Shown in pieces: positions 6,766 through 63,490 of a stretch of DNA of 64,000 bases. Made by a program: the position numbers and the translations under genes. This stretch comes from Prostheceraeus crozeri (Eukaryota > Platyhelminthes > Polycladida > Euryleptidae): the NCBI GenBank assembly GCA_907163375.1, contig CAJQUW010007273.1, positions 425,001 to 489,000 of the forward strand, in the 5' to 3' direction. Positions within the stretch are counted from its first letter, which is position 1; every line of letters starts with the position of its first letter. The notes beneath the pieces were generated by a model that worked only from the letters and a program-made list of their open reading frames with translations, ran no database searches and was not told where the DNA came from.

Positions 6766-8742
6766 CACAAGGTCTGAATCATGGCTCAGTCCAAGAAACT
6801 GAGAATCCGATGGTTTATTAGAACCAAACCATATATATTATATTATATGAACATCTCAACTACAAATATAATTGCGAGATATAATGCTGCTCCAGCTATA
6901 CATGAAGCGGGAAGCAATGCAAGAATGCAATTAAGCGGGAAGCAATGCCCTTGACAGTTTAGCCACTATTGACAGCCATTAGTCGAATGCTTGGACAAGT
7001 GTCAAGTAATCTTTGGTCAGTCAATACAAGTCGAAAGAAGCAAATAATTCCATCTCCTCAGATAGTGCTTAACTCCCACCTGTGTGATTATTTAGCTTAC
7101 TTGATTACAAGCAGAAGAACTGAGCTTAAGAAATATATTTATACCGTTCGCTCGCTTTGTATGTGAAAGCTTCAGATTGTTTAGTAGAAAGTACATTAAA
7201 TATAACTTAAGATATTTCTTTAGTTTTCTGGCATTTTCAACGCTTATCAATAATGATGAAATTGAAAAACAAAACAATTTAATTTTCAGCGTCACAATTC
7301 ACGCGAACTTCAATTAACGTTTCTCACCTTTTTATGTATCAGTTTTCAATAGTAAAATAATTAACTTTTGTCTAGAAGACTTCCACAGTTTCAAAGTGTA
7401 CACAACACGTTTGATTTCACAAGCGGAAAGTCTGTCAGTCATTTCAGGGATAGAATATAACAGAGAGGCGGCGCAGGAACATCTGCGCCCCACACAGTTC
7501 CACCAAAGGTTGAAACCTAGTTCCCAGAAAATGGATATATTTTTGTCGTCCGAAATCTATGACAGATACACTGTGAACTCTTGTCGCATTTCTTACTCAT
7601 TAGAAACACGTTTTCAATTTTCACACCATACTCTCGTGATATACAGTATGTAATCCCCAAAGTGCTTCCTGAAGAGAAAATTTCAAACAAAGAGTAGAAA
7701 TTTCATTATGATCGTTTGCTTGAAATCCAGTAAATACCGCATGTTTTGGGCTTTACAGAAATATAAGTTCTTTTGCTGCAACAAAAGCTTCTCAGTCAGT
7801 CGTAACTTCGCATGTTATACATAACATCACGCCGACAAATTACATGTAAATACGACAACAAGAAAATGTATATAACTTATGTATATTCAACCCACATTTA
7901 CAGAAAAAATGAACTTGTGTAATATTAATTTTTTTATACATGCATGTATACACGTATTATTGAACATCATCTCTTGAGAAGGCTGTTTGGCGATATACTG
8001 AGTTTCAATTCAGGCAAATGCTTGCCTATTTTTTGATAAAAGCAATCAAATAGCCAGTTTCAGACAAGCGAAATCATTTTTCATATGTGCTGATGTGCTG
8101 GAAGTAACCCCGGGTGAAATCGGACGTCTGCTTTAACCGCTACAGGTTCCTGTCGAACACTAGCCGTTCGCTCATTAAAACAAAAGTGATCATCTGATTG
8201 TCAGCTTTAGAGAAAACATAACTGTATTATTCATGAGCATTATTACTAGAGAAGAATAGAATAAGCATTTATTCAATATCAAGTGAAAATCATAAACAAG
8301 CATAAAAATTGCAGATCACTTCGATAGGATGCTGTTGTGCATCAAGCGTTTGGTGAAAGCCTGTGACACACCGTTGTTCTGCACAGCAAATCGATGTTTA
8401 TCTGCAACAATAACACCGGTTGTCATGACGTTTTCATTATCTTTAACAGCAATTCGGCCAAGCTACCGGTTACGAAAAATGTCGTATTTCTGCCTGCTTT
8501 TGGAGAATTGTGCCCTAAAAGTGGAATCGTAATCATAAAAATGACAAATTTTATTTTAAATTTTAAGTGAGTTTTGGATCATTACGTTATTGAGTGCATC
8601 AAACTCGGAAGTGCATGGATCTACATAAACAAATGATTTTTGACCCTCCATAACTTGCAGGACGAATGGAATCATAACTTAAGAATTGTCGCTTTACTGA
8701 TGTTGAGTAACAATCTACGAATTAAAATAATAAGAAGCTCGT
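6766..8742. other. Unassigned DNA
   Basis: AT-rich sequence with no supported gene, RNA or repeat. Short open frames (for example 6969-7166 and 7396-7653) look like noise. Confidence 0.4.
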
Positions 8743-11095: not shown

Positions 11096-12286
11096 CATAG
11101 AAATTCACTTCAATAAAACCTCTAGAATGGAAGTTAGGCTTCATGCTATACACAATAGTGGCACAAAAACACGTATTTCTACTTGGCATCACTTGTCAAC
11201 ATCTTGTACAAATTCTTTGTGCATCAAACCGCAGTTGTCGAAGAAGGCTATCAGCATTGTCTTCACTTTTGACTTTTGAAGTCGACTCTTTTGTGGGTCT
11301 TGGCTAATATGACGAACACTAAGCCATCGATTGGCGCTTGGTTCCTGATTCGTATTGGTAGCATCATGATTCGTCTTCAGTAACGATGGTGGTGAGAAAG
11401 GAAGGATCATGTTGACATTGTTGATGAAATCCTTGGAGCATTCCAGTCGGCTCTGCTTTTGCTCCACAGTTAGTTGGTGTGGCACAAAACGTGAACAAAT
11501 CTTCCGCTTTCCAAGGTCTTCCCGAACGATGGTGTGGACAGTGTCTTTACTCATTCCCAACTCCTCCGCTATCAACTGAAGTGTCATCCGCCAATCTTCA
11601 TACAAAATGTCTCGCAATTTTGCAATCATGACGTCAGTTCTGCTTGTCGATGGACGACCGGAACGTGTTTCGTCCTCCACCGATTCTCTCCCGTCTTTGA
11701 ATCTTTTGAACAAATCGTAAACCCACTTTTTGCTAACTGCTTCCTCTCCATAGGCTTCAAGTAGCATCTCATGTGTCTCCGCTGCCGTCTTCTTTAACTT
11801 GAAGCAGAATTTGATGTTAATGCGTTGCTCCATTTGGACAAAGTGAGATGTTAATCGATTGCCTGCTACGGCATTATTCAAAGGTTGACGAACACTCCAC
11901 ATCTGATTGCACTTTTCAATGCGTCTGCAGATAGCTATGATAGTACGCGCGCGTCATGCCCTGCGCTATATTTACTGACACCTCATTGAACATTGATGTG
12001 GGCTTGTGTGTACACAGCTTCTTCTTTTTCAGAGATATCTAATCATTCACCGAACTTTTAAGACACACCTTGTACATATGACAAATCAGCTCACTTGTTT
12101 ACACTTCACTACAAGATTAAGGCCACAAAGTGCTTCAACAGCTGCATCATTGGGTCATAATCAGTCACATGAGTAAATCTAATCTGTTTTTCATTGGTAC
12201 TTCATGCCCTAACTTAGTTCCCCCAGGTGTGCCGCGACCTTGAGTCAATTTCCATCCTAGTCAACTTCAGATAAACAATTTCTATG
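11096..12286. mobile_element. MITE-1 copy with perfect 8-bp TSD, split by a mariner remnant
   Basis: The ends are CATAGAAATT (11096) and AATTTCTATG (12286). They are flanked by the identical octamer CTGTCGTA at 11088-11095 and 12287-12294. The outer about 110 bp on the left and about 155 bp on the right align to the uninterrupted 256-bp copy at 61694-61949. The middle, about 11207-12130, is foreign and includes a broken mariner. An 8-bp TSD is known for the hAT and P superfamilies, among others. The CATAG terminus does not decide between them, so the superfamily is left open. Confidence 0.9.
11189..12074 (-). pseudogene. mariner transposase, 3'-truncated and broken
   Basis: The minus-strand frame (11902 to 11189) starts with the mariner HTH region, including the block SGRPSTSRTD and the following HTH around LIAEELGMSKDTVHTIVRED. 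Downstream, the reading of the first catalytic motif, TEDES, lies in a different frame and is followed by a stop where mariners have Trp. Two further in-frame stops follow before the frame returns at KSKVKTMLIAFFDN and HKEFV. The element is then cut: the second and third catalytic aspartates (mariner is DD34D) are absent. The 5' terminus is visible at about 12049-12072 (CAAGGTGTGTCTTAAAAG on the minus strand) next to TA. It is inactive and sits inside a MITE-1 copy. Confidence 0.9.
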
Positions 12287-12330: not shown

Positions 12331-13987
12331 AGTCCGTTTCATAAAAAGTGGATCATCCTAAAATTTGACTAAATAAAACATAAGTATGATACAGAAAGCA
12401 TTTTTTTCATGTTATTTCATGTCCCTAATATATTTAAATGTCTTTATATAATCTGATAAGCTATGATACATTAACGGTTCTTAAGAAGCTAATATTTTGT
12501 GGCCCTACCCTTATTGTCAATGACATTACCAATTCGTCTAGGCATTGATTCGATGATATCGTTGATTTTTGACTGATCTAACTTTCTCCACTCTCTTTTT
12601 AACAGTGACGTAAGTTGTGATACGCCATCTGTAGGTAGCAGTGAACGACGAACATTACGTTTTAGAATACTCCATACATTTTCTATGGGATTCAGATCAG
12701 GAGAACGAGCTGGCCAAGATAATGTCCTAAGCCCTAATTGAGACTTGCATAAGTTGACTCTACTACTCCTGTGACACGTAGCATTATCATCCATAAATAA
12801 CCAAGTCGATGGATCACCAAGTTGATCTGTCATTTGGCCAATGTTCATTCGTAAAACATTCACAAAGCGTTCAGAATTCATGGTTCCTTGCTGTATGTGA
12901 AGTTCAGAGCGGCCATTGGTCCAAATGCCAGCCCAAATCAGTAGAGTCGCACCACCTTGTACCCGGGGACGATGTAAATGTCTCGGAATTTCCTGATCAG
13001 ATTTTATCCATAATCTCAATCGACCATCACTATCCTTCAGACGGACTGATGCCTCATCAGACCAGACAACCCGATCCCATTGATTTCGCCAGTGACAATG
13101 ACTCATTGCCCATCTGAGACGTCTTTTTGTATGCTGATCTGATAATTCGATCTGAGAGGGCCTCTTACAGCTCTTGAAATTCGACTCAATAAGTCTTCTA
13201 CGAACAGTGGACTTAGAAATAGACGAGTCTAGTGCAGCCATCTCAGTTAACGAGAGACTTGGATCAACTTTAGCAAATCTCAAAATTAGGCGGTCTCTAC
13301 GTTTGGATGTTTTGCGTGGACGGCCAAAGCCCGCTTTACGACAGAGTCGAAAATCATCATTATGCCATCGATGCACATTTGTGTAAGGGACATTTAGTCG
13401 CTTGCTTGTAGCTCGCAAAGAAAAGCCTAGTTCTAGCAAGACTGACACTTTGCCTTTTGTGAATGCGATCTCGTTATTGTTCATCTGTGCTTTGTATTGT
13501 TATCAACCGGTGAGAGATAGATTTCTAGCTGAAAGCAATCAGGAGTGCTGCCAACACCACGGCAACGAAGTCAGGAAGCTATGGAACATGAAGTCCAGTT
13601 AATCACATGTAGCAGTTACATTATTGTTGATGAATAATGGTGCTATACTGGCTCTGATTGACCGATTTTCTTTATTTTTGTTTTGCTTGATAGCTTTTGG
13701 CTTGTAGAACAACATATTACATAACAAAGGAAACAAATGTAATTTTATAAGAGTGAGGTATGATTCTGTGTAAAATTGCTAAATGAAGATCAAATTATCT
13801 ACTACTTTTTTATCTATAACAGGAAAACAACTCAATATTCATGCCTGAAATTTCCAACAATGATATTAGTAAGCACAACTGACATATCTTCCAAATTTCA
13901 GAGAAATTCGTTCAAGTTTGGCGGAGTTAGACAAAGTTGAAGTTAAGGCGATGTTTAAGGGTGATCCATTTTTCATGAAACAATCTG
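12331..13987 (-). mobile_element. Tc1-like DNA transposon, near complete
   Basis: The terminal inverted repeats are imperfect. After slightly different outermost bases, the left end reads GTTTCATAAAAAGTGGATCA and the right end, reversed, reads GTTTCATGAAAAATGGATCA. TA dinucleotides flank both ends (12329-12330 and 13988-13989), the Tc1/mariner target duplication. The flanks join into a SINE1 copy: the left flank resembles its 3' end and the right flank resumes at TTAAGTCAATAAAAGACACC. The element is 1657 bp with an unusually long (about 500 bp) segment between the start codon and the right TIR. Confidence 0.9.
12489..13484 (-). CDS. Tc1-family transposase, intact DD34E
   Basis: This 331-aa frame catalyses cut-and-paste transposition of its own element in the nucleus. 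Residues 1-110 form the paired-type DNA-binding region: two helix-turn-helix units separated by the GRPR AT-hook-like motif at 54-57. The catalytic core has Asp143 in WSDEASV, Asp233 in MDDNATCH and Glu268 in SPDLNPIENVW, with 34 residues between the last two, as expected for Tc1. Length is normal for the family (about 330-345 aa). There is no internal stop or frameshift, and the frame sits between recognisable TIRs. Whether it is still active cannot be judged: the TIRs have diverged from each other, and the outermost base may be missing from the left end. Confidence 0.95.
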   Translation of the reverse strand: MNNNEIAFTKGKVSVLLELGFSLRATSKRLNVPYTNVHRWHNDDFRLCRKAGFGRPRKTSKRRDRLILRFAKVDPSLSLTEMAALDSSISKSTVRRRLIESNFKSCKRPSQIELSDQHTKRRLRWAMSHCHWRNQWDRVVWSDEASVRLKDSDGRLRLWIKSDQEIPRHLHRPRVQGGATLLIWAGIWTNGRSELHIQQGTMNSERFVNVLRMNIGQMTDQLGDPSTWLFMDDNATCHRSSRVNLCKSQLGLRTLSWPARSPDLNPIENVWSILKRNVRRSLLPTDGVSQLTSLLKREWRKLDQSKINDIIESMPRRIGNVIDNKGRATKY

Positions 13988-23649: not shown

Positions 23650-24556
<907 letters not shown>

Positions 24557-38124: not shown

Positions 38125-40429
38125 GGACTTTTGCATTTGCGCCACTTGGCAATGCATTTGCGCCACTTTTTTCGGTTATGTAATTTTGTAGCAATGCTTT
38201 TGCGCCAAAAGGAATCATGCATTTGCGCCAAAAAAATAATGCATTTGCGCCAAATGTGTTATCTATTCATAAGTTATGTGATCTCTGTCTTGTAATTCGC
38301 TTGTGAAAAATGATAAAATGATAAGCAGATAAAATCGCTCACATTACTTACGGTTATTAAGTATCTTTTGTCACGAAAATGTATCTAAATTATATTTGGC
38401 AACCAGTAATCTATGGATATAGTTGTATGGTAATCTATAGAATTACATATTATGTACATTGTACATGCATGTATGAAAACATCTATCAAATTCACTAAAT
38501 AAAATAGACCTATTATCCCATATACTAGCGAAGAAAAATACATTGTAATACAGACATAACATTTATTACACGCACCGTACAGTACATTACATGAATAATA
38601 AAATTGAAAATGGTGAAAGGACTGACTACACTCTGTGGGTATAACCTAATAATTTCACGTATGCAAAAGTTTCTATCTCACCAGCATTACGACGAGTGAT
38701 GAGGTCCATAGTCCGATTCTCCAGTTATTTCGTGGCATTATCTTTGTATGACACCTTTCCCATATTAGCACTTCGCATTTTCGCAGAGGAAGCGGTTTGA
38801 TATTTCACAAGCACGTCTATGAATGAATAAATATTCGGGTGCGTTGAATAAAATTCTTTATTGAAATGTCCATTGAAGGATTCGCACCCATTGTTCGTTC
38901 GAAGGGAGGCGTCATCAAATGCCCAAAGGGATGGGGGAAATTTGCTGTTGCTATCAACGAAATTGACCAGCACATAGTCGGCGAACTGATCGCATCTTTC
39001 ATCATTTGGAGTGATGGCAAATAAGTCATCCGTGAAGCAGTCGCTCACTTCTCCCGGTCGCAAGAATGGAAGTCCAAAGAAGTATGATAGCCATTTCGAC
39101 ACCTCACTTTCCTTGGCGTTGTACTGAGATGATAGTCCGAGACTTTGAATTTTTCGAAACCATGCCTGAGCGAGATGGAATCGGCATCCGTGAAGCTTGG
39201 CTGCAGAAAATGCGGAGACTGCAGAATTCATTGCCGCCTTCTCAAAATCCATCATAATAATGGATGGTCGCAGAATCAGATCAGCACTCTCACAATGACC
39301 TTTCAATTTGGACCACATGCAGTTGTACTTCTCCTCAGTTCGCTCTGTCATCAAGACGAAAACTAGAGGAATATACCATCCTTGGCGATGTCCGACAATA
39401 ACATACATTTGTTCGAAGTGTTTGGGGACACATTTAAATGTCCCATCGCAGAGAATATCTTCGCAAGAAGATAGAAATTCCAGATTCTCTTTACATGAGA
39501 ATAACACCATGGAGTTGCCTGCATCCAATTCAAGTATGAAATCTTCACCCTTGGCAGTTTTAAGTGGAATTGATTCCAAACATTGAAACACCTCTTCGTG
39601 TGATTTTGGAAGAACGGGATATTTCTTTCGTCGTTCACGGTAAATAGCTTCGCGGATGCGTTTGTAATCACCGGCTTCAATTTGAATGTCACCACTTTTG
39701 AAGTGTTCAGTCTTTATAATTTTGCTCGGTTTACACGTCAGATCGTCGAGCGCTTTTCTCTTGCATGTACGTCTCAAAACATCTGCCTGTACATTTGGTT
39801 GCTCATGCAATGTGGACCAGTAAAGTTTATTACTTCTCGACGTATAGTATAGAGTGTTGCTGAACAATTCTTCTTACAGCATCTCCATCGGGTAGTACCA
39901 GCTTTCGATGTACTTCCCACTCGAAACTTGTAATTGTCGTGGATAAAATAGTTTTCAGACGTGTTCGCTTCCATAATAATACTTCACAATAAAAATTGCT
40001 TCGAAAATCTTTCCTTTTAAGGGTTTGAAAACCACAATTGACTTCCTCTAATTTGGCAGCTGCTGTATTATGTTGCAAACTAATGTTATTTTACTCTTAT
40101 TTGTATAATTGCATCACATTTTTCGATTTGTTACAGACCATCGGTCACCGGGTGGTTACGAGATTCATGCCATTCATTAAGAAAAATAAACAGATATGTT
40201 CAGACCAATTGAAGCAAACCACAGTGATCTCTGATACAAACACCTTTATCTCGCTTTTGTCCATGCAGAAAGTAAACAAGAAAATGTGACACGCTGTCTT
40301 GATAAGAAACTGGCGCAAATGCAAGATCTGTTTTGGCGCAAATGCATTACGAGGAAAATGAATCTGTGGCGCAAAATCATTGCACCTACATTACATAACC
40401 GAAAATTGGGGCGCAAATCCATTATGTCC
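38125..40429 (-). mobile_element. Complete MULE with TIRs, motif arrays and ~9-bp TSD
   Basis: The inverted ends start GGAC and share TTTGCGCC blocks and a TTCGGTTATGTAAT block over about 140 bp. Flanks are CTCTCTGCG (38116-38124) and CTCTCTGCT (40430-40438), eight of nine identical; 9-bp duplications are usual for Mutator-like elements. The motif GCATTTGCGCCA or a close variant occurs five times in the left end (about 38132, 38153, 38193, 38219 and 38241) and four times inverted in the right end (about 40313, 40334, 40369 and 40409). These are plausible transposase binding sites. Total length is 2305 bp, with one transposase gene on the minus strand. Confidence 0.9.
38725..39974 (-). pseudogene. 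FLYWCH-MULE transposase, one frameshift
   Basis: The N-terminal piece (39974 to about 39800) is a FLYWCH-type zinc finger: NYKFRVGSTSKAGTTRWRC, C..NC and a terminal GPH. It then shifts frame; the continuation HEQPNVQADVL supplies the second His, so one base appears to be missing near 39808. The long second frame (380 codons, to 38725) is the MULE transposase core: Asp in LCDGTFKCVP (residue 141), Asp in IIMMDFEKAA (207), CRFHLAQAW (C..H at 228-231) and Glu in NNGCESFNG (329). That is the full MULE DDE set, with no stop. Apart from the frameshift the element looks young. A sequencing error at that base would make it an intact gene. Confidence 0.9.
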
Positions 40430-54005: not shown

Positions 54006-54720
54006 CTACCAAGGTAAGTATAAAGAAATGATATGTTCATTCTGTACGCACAAATTAGGGCTAAACCTTCGAATAGCCAAAGCTTCCGTGAAGGACAAAG
54101 TAGTAGAATGTCTGTTTGAAAATAAAACTTTAAAAGAAGAACGAGCAGTGTCAGTATCACAGCTACAAGCTTGTAAATGCCGAGTAATAGCACTTGCCGG
54201 AGCGCGGACGGATCGAGGAGGTTTGCGGACGGAATTGTTCAACCACTTTGGCACGTGTTCTGAGATACGGTCCTCAAGTTTGCGGCCAGTTCTCCCAATA
54301 TATCTGCTACTGCAGATACACGTGAATGGGTAAATAACATTGGATTTTTGGCGAACAGGCACAAAATCTTTCGGGGACCGGATCGAGATACGTTGAGTGC
54401 TGAATATCACGGTCGGCGAAGCAGCAGGATACAGGCGAAAGGCCTTCTTGATTGACGTCCGAAAAAAGGAAGCTGACTTCTCACCAATGTATGGGACTTT
54501 AATGTACACCTTCTTCTTTTCAGGGCCGAACTCTTGTGCTGACTCGACAGGAGATTGAGTCATATACCTCTCTATGAAAAACGAGGGATATCCATTATCC
54601 AGCAGCACGCACTTTATACTCTCCAGCTCAGCAGGAAGCGTCTCAGGCAAGCATATTCTGTGAGCTCTCATTGTGAGTGACTTCACCAAGTTGACCTTAT
54701 AAGAGCGTGGGACAAAGCTG
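54006..54720 (-). pseudogene. Penelope-like RT C-terminus plus GIY-YIG endonuclease (left copy)
   Basis: The PLE-related reading starts at FVPRSYKVNLVKSLTMRAHR (near 54719), the end of the RT domain, and includes LLDNGYPSFFIERYM. A linker follows with YIKVPYIGEKSASFFRTSIK, then the GIY-YIG domain: NVIYPFTCICSSRYIGRTGR, with DRISEHVPKWL on the catalytic helix, then EALAIRRF and the stop. The domain is open throughout and all key residues are present. The RT catalytic region is missing, so the copy is 5'-truncated. The apparent N terminus (MLTRQEIESY) comes from antisense reading of the opposite copy and is not part of the protein. Confidence 0.9.
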
Positions 54721-54760
54721 TAGAAGCTTGAATAGATATATAGCTGTAGAAGCTCGAGGT

Positions 54761-55318
54761 ATGACTCAATCTCCTGTCGAGTCAGCACAAGAGTTCGGCC
54801 CTGAAAAGAAGAAGGTGTACATTAAAGTCCCATACATTGGTGAGAAGTCAGCTTCATTTTTTCGGACGTCAATCAAGAAGGCCTTTCGCCTGTATCCTGC
54901 TGCTTCGCCGACCGTGATATTCAGCACTCAACGTATCTCGATCCGGTCCCCGAAAGATTTTGTGCCTGTTCGCCAAAAATCCAATGTTATTTACTCATTC
55001 ACGTGTATCTGCAGTAGCAGATATATTGGGAGAACTGGTCGCAAACTTGAGGACCGTATCTCAGAACACGTGCCAAAGTGGTTGAACAATTCCGTCCGCA
55101 AACCTCCTCGATCCGTCCGCGCTCCGGCAAGTGCTATTACTCGGCATTTACAAGCTTGTAGCTGTGATACTGACACTGCTCGTTCTTCTTTTAAAGTTTT
55201 ATTTTCAAACAGACATTCTACTACTTTGTCCTTCACGGAAGCTTTGTCTATTCGAAGGTTTAGCCCTAATTTGTGCGTACAGAAGGAACATATCATTTCT
55301 TTATACTTACCTTGGTAG
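54761..55318 (+). pseudogene. Penelope-like GIY-YIG endonuclease end (right copy)
   Basis: From MTQSPVES the frame is nearly identical to the left copy: NVIYSFTCICSSRYIGRTGR, DRISEHVPKWL, EALSIRRF, ending SLYLPW. There are three residue differences in about 185 (Ser for Pro after NVIY, Ser for Ala in EALxIRRF, Lys for Asn before EHI). It is truncated 5' of the linker and has no RT. The first 18 codons of the open frame (from 54707) are junction sequence. With no stops and such high identity to its mirror, the duplication is recent, or the arms are being homogenised. Confidence 0.9.
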
Positions 55319-61578: not shown

Positions 61579-61693
61579 GATGTACCCATAGAAATTGATG
61601 ACAATAAAACCTCTAAAATGGAAGTAAATCTCTATGCAATACACAATAGTCGCACAAAAATCGCATTCATTTTCACTTAGATGCACTTGTGAA

Positions 61694-61949
61694 CATAGAA
61701 ATCAACTGTTTATCTGAAGTTCGCTAGAATGGAAATTGATTCAAGGTCGCGGCACATCCGAGGGAACTAAGTTGGGGCATGAAGAACCAATTAAAAGCTT
61801 CGATTTACTCATGTGACTGATTCTAACCCAATGATACAGACGTTGGCAGGTGCATCTAAGTGAAAATGCGTGCGATTTATGTGCCGCTATTGTGCATTGC
61901 ATGTAGCTTAATTTCCATTCTAGAGGTTTTATTGTTGTCAATTTCTATG
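61694..61949. mobile_element. Inner MITE-1 copy, intact 256 bp, perfect 8-bp TSD
   Basis: The ends are CATAGAAATC and AATTTCTATG, with imperfect terminal inverted repeats of about 43 bp sharing a CTAGAATGGAAATT block. Direct octamers CTTGTGAA lie at 61686-61693 and 61950-61957. It is inverted relative to the outer copy. It defines the full length and both ends of the family. No coding capacity. Confidence 0.92.
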
Positions 61950-62430
61950 CTTGTGAAAGTCTGAATCATTGGGTTAGAATCAGTCACTTGTGCAATTCTA
62001 AGCTTTTCATTTGTTCTTCATGCTCCAACTTAGCTCCCCCGGATGTGGGTAAATCCAATTTATTCCACAATATTTCTGTCTTTTCAACTTTGGGTCTCAG
62101 ATTTCCGTGAAAATTTGCATATGTACTTATTTTTTTACGCTGAACACGAAAATCTTAGCGGCGACCACACCAAATAAAAACTTTCCATAGAAATCTACCA
62201 CTTTTAAAATGCCATTTTCTTCTACATCTCGGTCAGAGGACAATGATCTCGGTCAGATAGATGTCGAACAGGAACTCTTCGGCTTCTGCATTTGGGTTGC
62301 TGATGAGACTGGGAGCTTGGGATGAATGCTTGCATGCGTAAAGCGAAGTGACCAAAATGTAATGTATTGCATATGATGTTCTTTGACCGTGACCCGCCTT
62401 GTCCATTGACCGAGATCTTCAATTTCAACG

Positions 62431-62473
62431 TTGTCCTCTGACCGAGAATTTCAAGGTCTCGGTCAGAGGACAA
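62431..62473. repeat. Perfect 17-bp hairpin in the motif array
   Basis: Positions 62431-62447 (TTGTCCTCTGACCGAGA) pair without mismatch to 62457-62473, leaving a 9-base loop. The stem is made of two inverted copies of the array motif. As DNA it could be a cruciform or a paired protein-binding site; as RNA, a stable hairpin. Confidence 0.9.
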
Positions 62474-62643
62474 ATTGATGTCGAAAAGGAAACTCTTCGG
62501 CTTCAGCATTTGGGTTATGAGACTGGGAACTTAGGGCGAATACTTGAATGCGTAAGACGAAGTGATCTAAATGCAATTGCATACATTATAATGTCCTTTG
62601 ACCGAGACCCTTGTATTCTGACCGAGATCTTCCATTTTAACGT

Positions 62644-62685
62644 TGTCGTCTGACCGAGATTTTTTAGGGTCTCGGTCAGAGGACA
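62644..62685. repeat. Second motif hairpin, 16 bp with one mismatch
   Basis: Positions 62644-62659 (TGTCGTCTGACCGAGA) pair to 62670-62685 with one mismatch and a 10-base loop. It lies 213 bp after the first hairpin, at the same place in the second unit of the tandem duplication. Confidence 0.88.
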
Positions 62686-63490
62686 TTTTCGTGGTTTTTG
62701 GAGATTTTGAGAGGGTTAATTTATATAAATGAAAAATTTCTTTTGCATAGATGTTAAGAGCATGGATCCCTCCTATGCCGCGAAATTTCATCGATTCCTG
62801 ACAAAATTTCTGGTTTCAGCATCCACATGAAATTTTTGGGAATATTCAAATACTCTGGACGAAAAAACGGATAAAAATATTTTTAAATCAATATTGCTCA
62901 CTTGTAACGTCATCAAACTAATTTTTTTCTTCACGGATTTATAAACTAGCACACTAGAGGATTCGTTTGGTGCAAAACGTTTGATGGAAAAATCAATATA
63001 TCAATATTCTTCGAGAAAAGGTACCTCGATCAGAGGACAGAAAACGTCTCGGTCAGAGGACATTTTTTTCATTGGACAATGGAAACCCAGTGAAAATTCA
63101 ATGATTAATATTAATTACAATATTTAAAATTAGACTGTCTTAAAGAGCTGATCTTCTACTTTCAGATGATATAAATATTAGTGGGTGTATTTGAATGTAG
63201 CTGATCGAAAATCCGTGTTGAAGTGAGAATACTGTAACTTTGGACATGCTTTTTTGGTCTTTTTTCAGCAAAAAACGGCAACTTGTGAAGAAGGTCTTGG
63301 CTTTGTGACTTTTTAAAAACCATGCCATAATAGATGAGATCCTGACGGTTCGATTAAAAAAAACTACTGAAATCGGTTCAGAAATATGGATTTTACAAAT
63401 CAAAGACACATTTTCGTCAAATGTTGTGGATTAAATTGGATTTACCCATGTGCCGCGACCTTGAGTCAATTTCTATTCAATTTCCACTCC

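Follow-up and report, generated by a model that had tools for sequence, protein, structure and literature searches.

Positions 62047-63447 of the window, by which is meant the whole 64-kb stretch of contig CAJQUW010007273.1 of the flatworm Prostheceraeus crozeri that was analysed, are occupied by a non-autonomous DNA transposon of 1401 bp. It is delimited by terminal inverted repeats (TIRs), a target-site duplication (TSD) and two empty sites; no strand is assigned to it, and relative to the coding copies of its family, F1, it lies in reverse orientation. One TIR, GGGTAAATCCAATTTATTCCACAATATTT (62047-62075, plus strand), pairs at 27 of 29 positions with the opposite arm (63419-63447, minus strand), which bears out the boundaries that the initial annotation had drawn from 29-nt TIRs. 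Comparison of the flanks places the duplicated ATGT, likewise claimed there, at 62043-62046 and 63448-63451 (both plus strand). When the two flanks were fused by script with a single ATGT and aligned to the window, the fused sequence ran across the junction at 61727-62047 on the minus strand (CGGATGTGCCGCG) and at 12142-12255 (CAGGTGTGCCGCG), so that the empty site expected in related MITE copies was found twice within the window. By alignment, 61727-62046 (plus strand) is a palindromic, MITE-like host repeat that served as the insertion target of the element and whose opposite arm is the first empty site, and the other lies in a further copy of this repeat (12142-12255, plus strand). This host repeat (61587-62046 and 12136-12286) represents a palindromic MITE-like family in its own right, with stretches 83-85% alike between copies.

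The interior of the element is studded with a 15-nt motif, CTCGGTCAGAGGACA. A motif scan allowing at most three mismatches returned 11 matches in the window, all within 62228-63062, where 0.87 would be expected by chance, and none of 100 shuffles reached this number. Twelve had been claimed; 11 of these are real, at positions correct to within 7 nt, and the one placed at about 62247 proved degenerate, agreeing in 10 of 15 letters (62248-62262, plus strand; the first 10 letters agree, with more than three mismatches). Exact copies lie at 62228-62242 (plus), 62432-62446 (minus) and 62458-62472 (plus), the latter two forming, by folding, the left and right arms of a hairpin at 62431-62473. Copies with three mismatches (62377-62391), two (62400-62414 and 62612-62626) and one (62592-62606) are all on the minus strand, and the other four matches are given below with their counterparts in the coding copies. 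As single-stranded DNA, neighbouring motif pairs can form strong hairpins (z -8.8 for 62431-62473 and -7.6 for 62643-62685). The density of motifs is in part due to a motif-bearing tandem duplication, two units of about 214 bp at 62260-62685 (plus strand; TRF, 81% match). The element had no match in Rfam at the gathering score and no relative in phages. A search with the hairpin pattern gave 0 occurrences in genome_contigs and 4 in viral_contigs, and the 7 and 9 stretches of viral contigs that hold exact 15-16-mers aligned with the element over short lengths only (lowest E in that set 0.004).

The absence from the window of a transposase of this kind, as initially reported, agrees with a tblastn search of the 64 kb with four transposase relatives, which returned nothing at E ≤ 1. 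Pfam identifies transposase frames of other types in the window, namely MULE (38725-39873), DDE_3/Tc3-type (12489-13499) and Mos1-type HTH (11189-11953), all on the minus strand. Further features of the window are near-identical reading-frame stretches in opposite orientation at 54006-54821 (minus) and 54695-55318 (plus), which constitute an inverted duplication, and a stretch of (TC)n at 23652-24553, some 900 bp long and with 98% matches.

Copies in the genome and the origin of the short element

The assembly from which the window derives (2.05 Gb, 14165 contigs) was searched with the element. Of 1543 candidates, 40 were scored: the copy in the window itself and 39 more with identities of 91-95%. 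In 28 of the 40, the match reaches to within 4 nt of one end and to within 2 nt of the opposite one. Exact occurrences of the 15 outermost TIR nucleotides number 1460 (725 + 735 on the two strands), compared to 2 (2 + 0) for a control sequence, and this count suggests that the short form is present in hundreds of copies. The motif occurs exactly 4755 times (2303 + 2452; control 0). The first 100 motif places and the first 100 TIR places were compared by eye: 90 of these motif places lie within 1.6 kb of a TIR so listed, 5 (contig C314) fall in a copy with a one-mismatch TIR (L067), and 5 (C206 and C216) fit neither description. A separate satellite, which the initial annotation had named as a finding that would undo the element, is therefore ruled out, with 90 + 5 of the first 100 motif places tied to element copies.

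A TSD tally was run over many copies, as had been proposed. Its material was the window plus 59 fetched stretches (L029-L087), and a TIR pair was accepted if neither end had more than one mismatch; excluded were 10 stretches without a usable pair, L043, L048, L057 and L059 (2-3 mismatches at an end) and L075 (no flank). In all, 46 pairs were scored. An exact 4-bp TSD flanks 30 of the 46, three of four positions match in 13, two in 2 and none in 1, and exact duplications of 5 bp or more are absent from the 46; swapping the flanks gave a rate of 1.3%. Differing ends or missing TSDs, which would likewise have counted against the element, are thus not what the scored pairs display. The exact TSDs are AT-rich and varied, with 23 kinds among the 30, of which 5 fit AWWT, 10 fit A..T and 13 consist entirely of A/T. 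The 37 short copies that were aligned, the window's included, diverge by 1.9-4.7% from their majority sequence (mean 3.0%), a figure that leans low because many were chosen as best matches. In one stretch (L071, G000:C1001:629560-639480), an F1 short copy heads an apparent tandem array, in which the right TIR recurs at 1540, 4230, 6929 and 9624, about 2.7 kb apart.

Among the first 100 listed TIR places, two TIR pairs lie 6.7 and 7.1 kb apart and define copies A (L068) and B (L069). Longer copies with the same ends and a transposase gene had been predicted, and such copies of 6.7-7.1 kb exist, with a multi-exon gene for a putative transposase: the interior of A and B contains exons of a single protein with homology to an uninterrupted frame in a copy from a related family (L098). 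The two ends of the window element correspond to the two ends of these copies. Its segment 62047-62257 (minus strand) is homologous to their right (3', array) end, being 91% identical to A 6696-6484, and 62506-63447 (minus strand) to their left end, being 87-88% identical to A 908-1 and B 925-1. Both ends being common to the short element and to A and B, the former is an internal-deletion derivative of such a copy; the window element is thus a non-coding, non-autonomous derivative of the 6.7-7.1 kb F1 DNA transposon.

A genome search with a 154-aa exon of the transposase scored 150 matches of 984 candidates, 8 of which, at 96-100% identity, are F1 coding copies. Four of these eight, which share one orientation, align with the reference for about 3.4 kb at 98.4-99.0% identity, the other three being outside this comparison because of their orientation. 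The seven of the eight besides A were read at their predicted ends; both ends were found in four and one end in three, and the TSD was exact in all four of those with both ends found (ACAA, ATGC, GTAT and AAAA). A matching 4-bp TSD is absent from copy A, and in copy B three of four positions match. The flanks of A (L068, around 493-500 and 7197-7200) read AGTC-CCGG-element-AGTC, and one reading of its missing TSD would be a 4-nt filler between the TSD and the left TIR. The Repbase family rule demands, in the accessible portion of its description, TSDs of equal length and similar termini over positions 1-11 (PMC4455052); the short and long F1 copies share identical first 15 nt and a 4-bp TSD, and so belong together under this rule.

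The motifs of the coding copies are arranged differently at the two ends. At the left end, the five coding copies with a left TIR found carry six motifs at about 388-, 411-, 755-, 782+, 814+ and 834+, whose positions shift by no more than 4 nt among these five and by 5 nt in B; four of the six lie within three mismatches in A. This set holds an inverted pair, which lies at about 755-796 nt from the left terminus. On the right, the motifs follow one another head to tail in an array that stops about 182 nt short of the terminus and has 5, 6, 6, 6, 6 and 26 units in the six coding copies with a right TIR found, 5 in A and 30 in B. Neighbouring units are 21 or 22 bp apart, the two longest arrays averaging 21.3 and 21.4, a spacing that amounts to two turns of B-DNA and puts them on one face of the DNA. 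By scan and alignment, the remaining motifs of the window element are positional counterparts of the left-end set: 62644-62658 (minus strand, one mismatch) of 782+ and 62671-62685 (plus, exact) of 755-, the two together being the inverted pair, and 63025-63039 (plus, one mismatch) of 411- and 63048-63062 (plus, exact) of 388-. The motifs are consequently not peculiar to the short form, since the long copies have them at homologous positions.

When the short consensus was compared with coding copies, motif columns had changed less than their surroundings, an outcome favoured by the way these columns were picked, namely for their resemblance to the motif. Against A, there are 0/74 mismatches in motif columns and 78/832 around them (p 0.002), and against the copy on C10692, 3/90 and 74/827 (p 0.07). 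Two of seven left-end comparisons, which are not independent, reach p < 0.05, as does one of five between the window copy alone and the coding copies; at the right end, 0/15 versus 12/183 is not significant (p 0.60). Among the 37 aligned short copies, conservation is no higher in motif columns (97.3%) than elsewhere (96.9%), and gaps are more frequent in them (3.7% versus 0.9%). The lack of excess conservation here is expected, as it fits passive copies, and gives no support in itself.

Arrays and transposases of related families

Four further families, F2-F5, were chosen from the matches to the 154-aa exon for their long open frames or their divergence, with their ends unseen beforehand, and represent a small fraction of the group. 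F2 (L098/L099) measures 6.1 kb, has frames of 762 and 761 aa, termini GGGCAAATCCATTTT and a TIR of about 40 bp, and shows exact 4-bp TSDs in both copies read (CATA and ACTA). The first 15 terminal nt of F2 occur 33 + 44 times in the genome (control 1 + 0), with seven pairs about 6 kb apart. Its left end bears six motifs (602+, 769+, 784+, 797-, 818- and 839-) and its right end an array of 21-bp units with the core GTTATGATCTA. F3 (L100/L101) measures 4.9 kb, with frames of 692 and 668 aa, termini GGGTAAATCCAGA, a TIR of about 29 bp and, again in both copies read, exact 4-bp TSDs (AACT and ATAT); its motif is found at 412-, 592-, 748- and 765+ on the left, and its right end has just two units, 21 bp apart. 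F4 (L121) has 30 units spaced alternately by 20 and 21 bp and the right terminus GGGCGTTTCC, set by the stop of homology in three other copies, with a fourth stopping 7-8 nt further; these comparison copies appear to carry shorter arrays. F5 (L122) has a 21-bp array and the right terminus GGGCAATTC, set by the homology stop in three copies, a fourth continuing into shared flank. The F5 copy contains an apparent mariner-like element (L122:1659-3051) with 29-nt inverted repeats and a transposase-like frame.

From the last unit to the right terminus the distance is 182 nt in F1, 181 in F2, 174 in F3, 165 in F4 and 169 in F5, each counted from the last base of the 11-15-nt core that was used; the F3 value was corrected by one base because the T preceding GGG belongs to the F3 TSD. 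In the three families in which left ends were read (F1, F2 and F3), the inverted motif pair starts 748-797 nt from the left terminus. The unit sequences differ among F1-F5, save for TCTGACCGA, which is common to F1 and F5 (iterons at L122:6378-6478 in the latter). In the 154-aa exon, F2 is the nearest to F1 of the four (47%), with F5 at 39%; iteron sequence does not simply track the relatedness of the transposases, since F1 shares its 9-nt core TCTGACCGA with F5 and its exon is nearer to that of F2. As a control, exact 10-mers repeated at 19-23 nt were scored in the right ends of F1-F5 and in 138 window tiles of 450 nt. Such repeats are present in the right ends of four of the five families (F1 32, F2 38, F3 8 and F5 10), F4 scoring 0 because its exact unit is 41 bp (20 + 21), and in 3 of the 138 background tiles, with scores of 1, 4 and 11, the last of which exceeds those of F3 and F5. 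The place of the array and its spacing of about 21 bp are common to the five families, and the sequence of the motif is mostly different.

Conserved stretches of the transposases include three blocks: DFSENY (DFSRNF in F4 and DYSENF in F5), SDSPSSQYRN, and E-x-GHGK followed by DG-x-GA-xx-KR. In the protein alignment, whose F1 row covers the later blocks only, the D, D and E/D of the transposase core do not vary among the sequences that cover them, the third block having both E and D (E-x-GHGK-x-A-x-DG). From pattern and spacing, we read the putative DDE/D triad as the D of block 1, the D of block 2 and the E or D of block 3. By eye, the N-terminal part is basic, contains a heptad-like stretch and precedes a cysteine-rich one, which makes a plausible candidate for the DNA-binding part. 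Pfam matches to the transposase all fell below the curated cut-offs and were scattered across unrelated families (best E 0.0006), and PDB returned nothing significant by sequence. Profile searches with the transposase found no relative in genome_contigs and, in viral_contigs, first none and then a single match of 18 residues in an unrelated frame (L102).

Known superfamilies and the proposed function of the arrays

Several known systems share properties with these elements. In maize En/Spm (CACTA), about a dozen short subterminal motifs in both orientations are bound by the element-encoded TnpA, and the window element similarly has about a dozen short subterminal motifs in both orientations; En/Spm has CACTA termini and a 3-bp TSD, whereas F1 has GGG termini, a 4-bp TSD and helically phased spacing. 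Academ elements have a 3-4-bp TSD and an Academ transposase. The TTAA target of piggyBac and Kolobok rules these out, as none of the 23 TSD kinds among the 30 exact ones is TTAA. The hAT superfamily, which duplicates 8 bp, differs from F1 in superfamily and TSD, and its Buster elements resemble F1 in their subterminal short repeats and internal-deletion forms. Subterminal tandem short repeats tell hAT families apart, and non-autonomous Busters arise via internal deletion, according to the accessible sections of PMC4298943, in which 21-bp phasing was not found. Chapaev (CMC), described in the accessible text of PMC4079192 as having a 3-4-bp TSD, CAC...GTG termini and, in one family, a spliced transposase gene, is like F1 in TSD length and spliced gene and is ruled out by the F1 termini, GGGTAAATCC...GGATTTACCC (GGG...CCC). 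Ginger, with its TGTNR termini, CCGG/CCGT (Ginger1) or RTATAY (Ginger2) targets and integrase-like transposase, as far as the available part of PMC2836005 describes it, is ruled out by the GGG termini, the varied TSDs and the lack of an integrase match in Pfam.

The nearest known system by TSD, size and TIR is Sola2, compared here by description only and without filing the element there. Sola2 elements have, in the portions of PMC10741241 and PMC3627910 at hand, an AT-rich 4-bp TSD (AWWT), a length of 2-9 kb, TIRs of 11 bp or more and an acidic-triad (DDD) transposase. F1 shares the 4-bp TSD, and the sizes and TIRs of F1 (6.7-7.1 kb, 29 nt), F2 (6.1 kb, ~40 bp) and F3 (4.9 kb, ~29 bp) fall within these ranges. 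Exact AWWT accounts for 5 of the 30 exact F1 TSDs, and the third residue of the putative triad may be E or D. In the accessible part of the literature searched, no Sola element was seen to carry phased subterminal arrays, nor were arrays that are phased, fixed in position and replaced in sequence found in the open-licence literature on subterminal repeats or Sola, as far as its text was available. The motif and the transposase motifs, taken as letters, have no occurrence in open-licence literature, and the matches listed there for the terminal sequences all look unrelated by title.

The best-supported reading of the repeated motifs is that they are multiple binding sites for the putative transposase, and of the arrays, most likely, that they are helically phased sites of this kind. 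F1 is probably a cut-and-paste family whose phased iterons would be bound cooperatively by its putative transposase and whose short copies are deletion derivatives. A spliced gene between 29-nt TIRs beginning GGGTAAATCC provides the coding copies with a putative DDE/D transposase, and insertion duplicates 4 bp of the target. Under the proposed mechanism, the repeated motif would act as an iteron, with phased units bound cooperatively on one face of the DNA, perhaps by the basic, heptad-like and cysteine-rich N-terminal part. The transposase would load on the right end, pair it with the differently built left end and then cleave at the TIRs, and the short copies would have spread because they kept TIRs and iterons. 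That their dense inverted motif set raises affinity for the transposase is a guess.

An unlikely alternative is that the arrays lie outside the transposition complex and are bound by a transcription factor of the host or serve the transposase gene in autoregulation, as a promoter, enhancer or insulator. Such a role would suit the left-end set, inverted pair included, which in F1-F3 is upstream of the gene, and array sizes from 5 to 30 among coding copies, a range that a transpososome need not tolerate. However, in all five families read the main array follows the gene and is close to the right terminus, most fetched non-coding copies retain motifs from both ends, and a motif that differs among families of one genome fits element-specific proteins better than a single host factor. 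Functionless tandem-repeat expansion by slippage is less probable still. It is consistent with the wide variation in unit number, the lack of excess motif conservation in short copies and the 19-23-nt repeats in 3 of 138 background tiles, yet the period and the right-end distance are similar in five families despite mostly different units, and F1-F3 have the same motif, inverted pair included, at the other end, to which slippage cannot copy it. A composite origin, with an unrelated motif-bearing repeat nested in a MITE, could draw on the inverted motifs at the edges of the 214-bp duplication but is rejected as scarcely credible, given that long copies hold motifs at homologous positions.

If the arrays are indeed transposase sites, this reading can be extended, tentatively and against our own expectation, to the group as a whole. 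These transposons, without a match in Pfam or PDB, would recognize their ends by iteron arrays that are helically phased and keep a constant distance to the right terminus; the 21-bp phase and the left inverted pair would be kept and the iteron sequence replaced in each family, so that co-resident families would not cross-mobilise, and array length may be a dosage dial. An unclassified short repeat is now a member of a coding family, and an array of 20-22 bp units about 165-182 nt inside the right end is suggested as a sequence-independent landmark for finding others. Should the arrays be transposase sites, this one genome would constitute a natural experiment, in which related transposases use the same geometry with different recognition sequences. 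It would show how DNA-binding specificity shifts while the spacing rule stays, would explain how many families coexist without cross-talk, and could offer orthogonal transposon ends for genetic tools.
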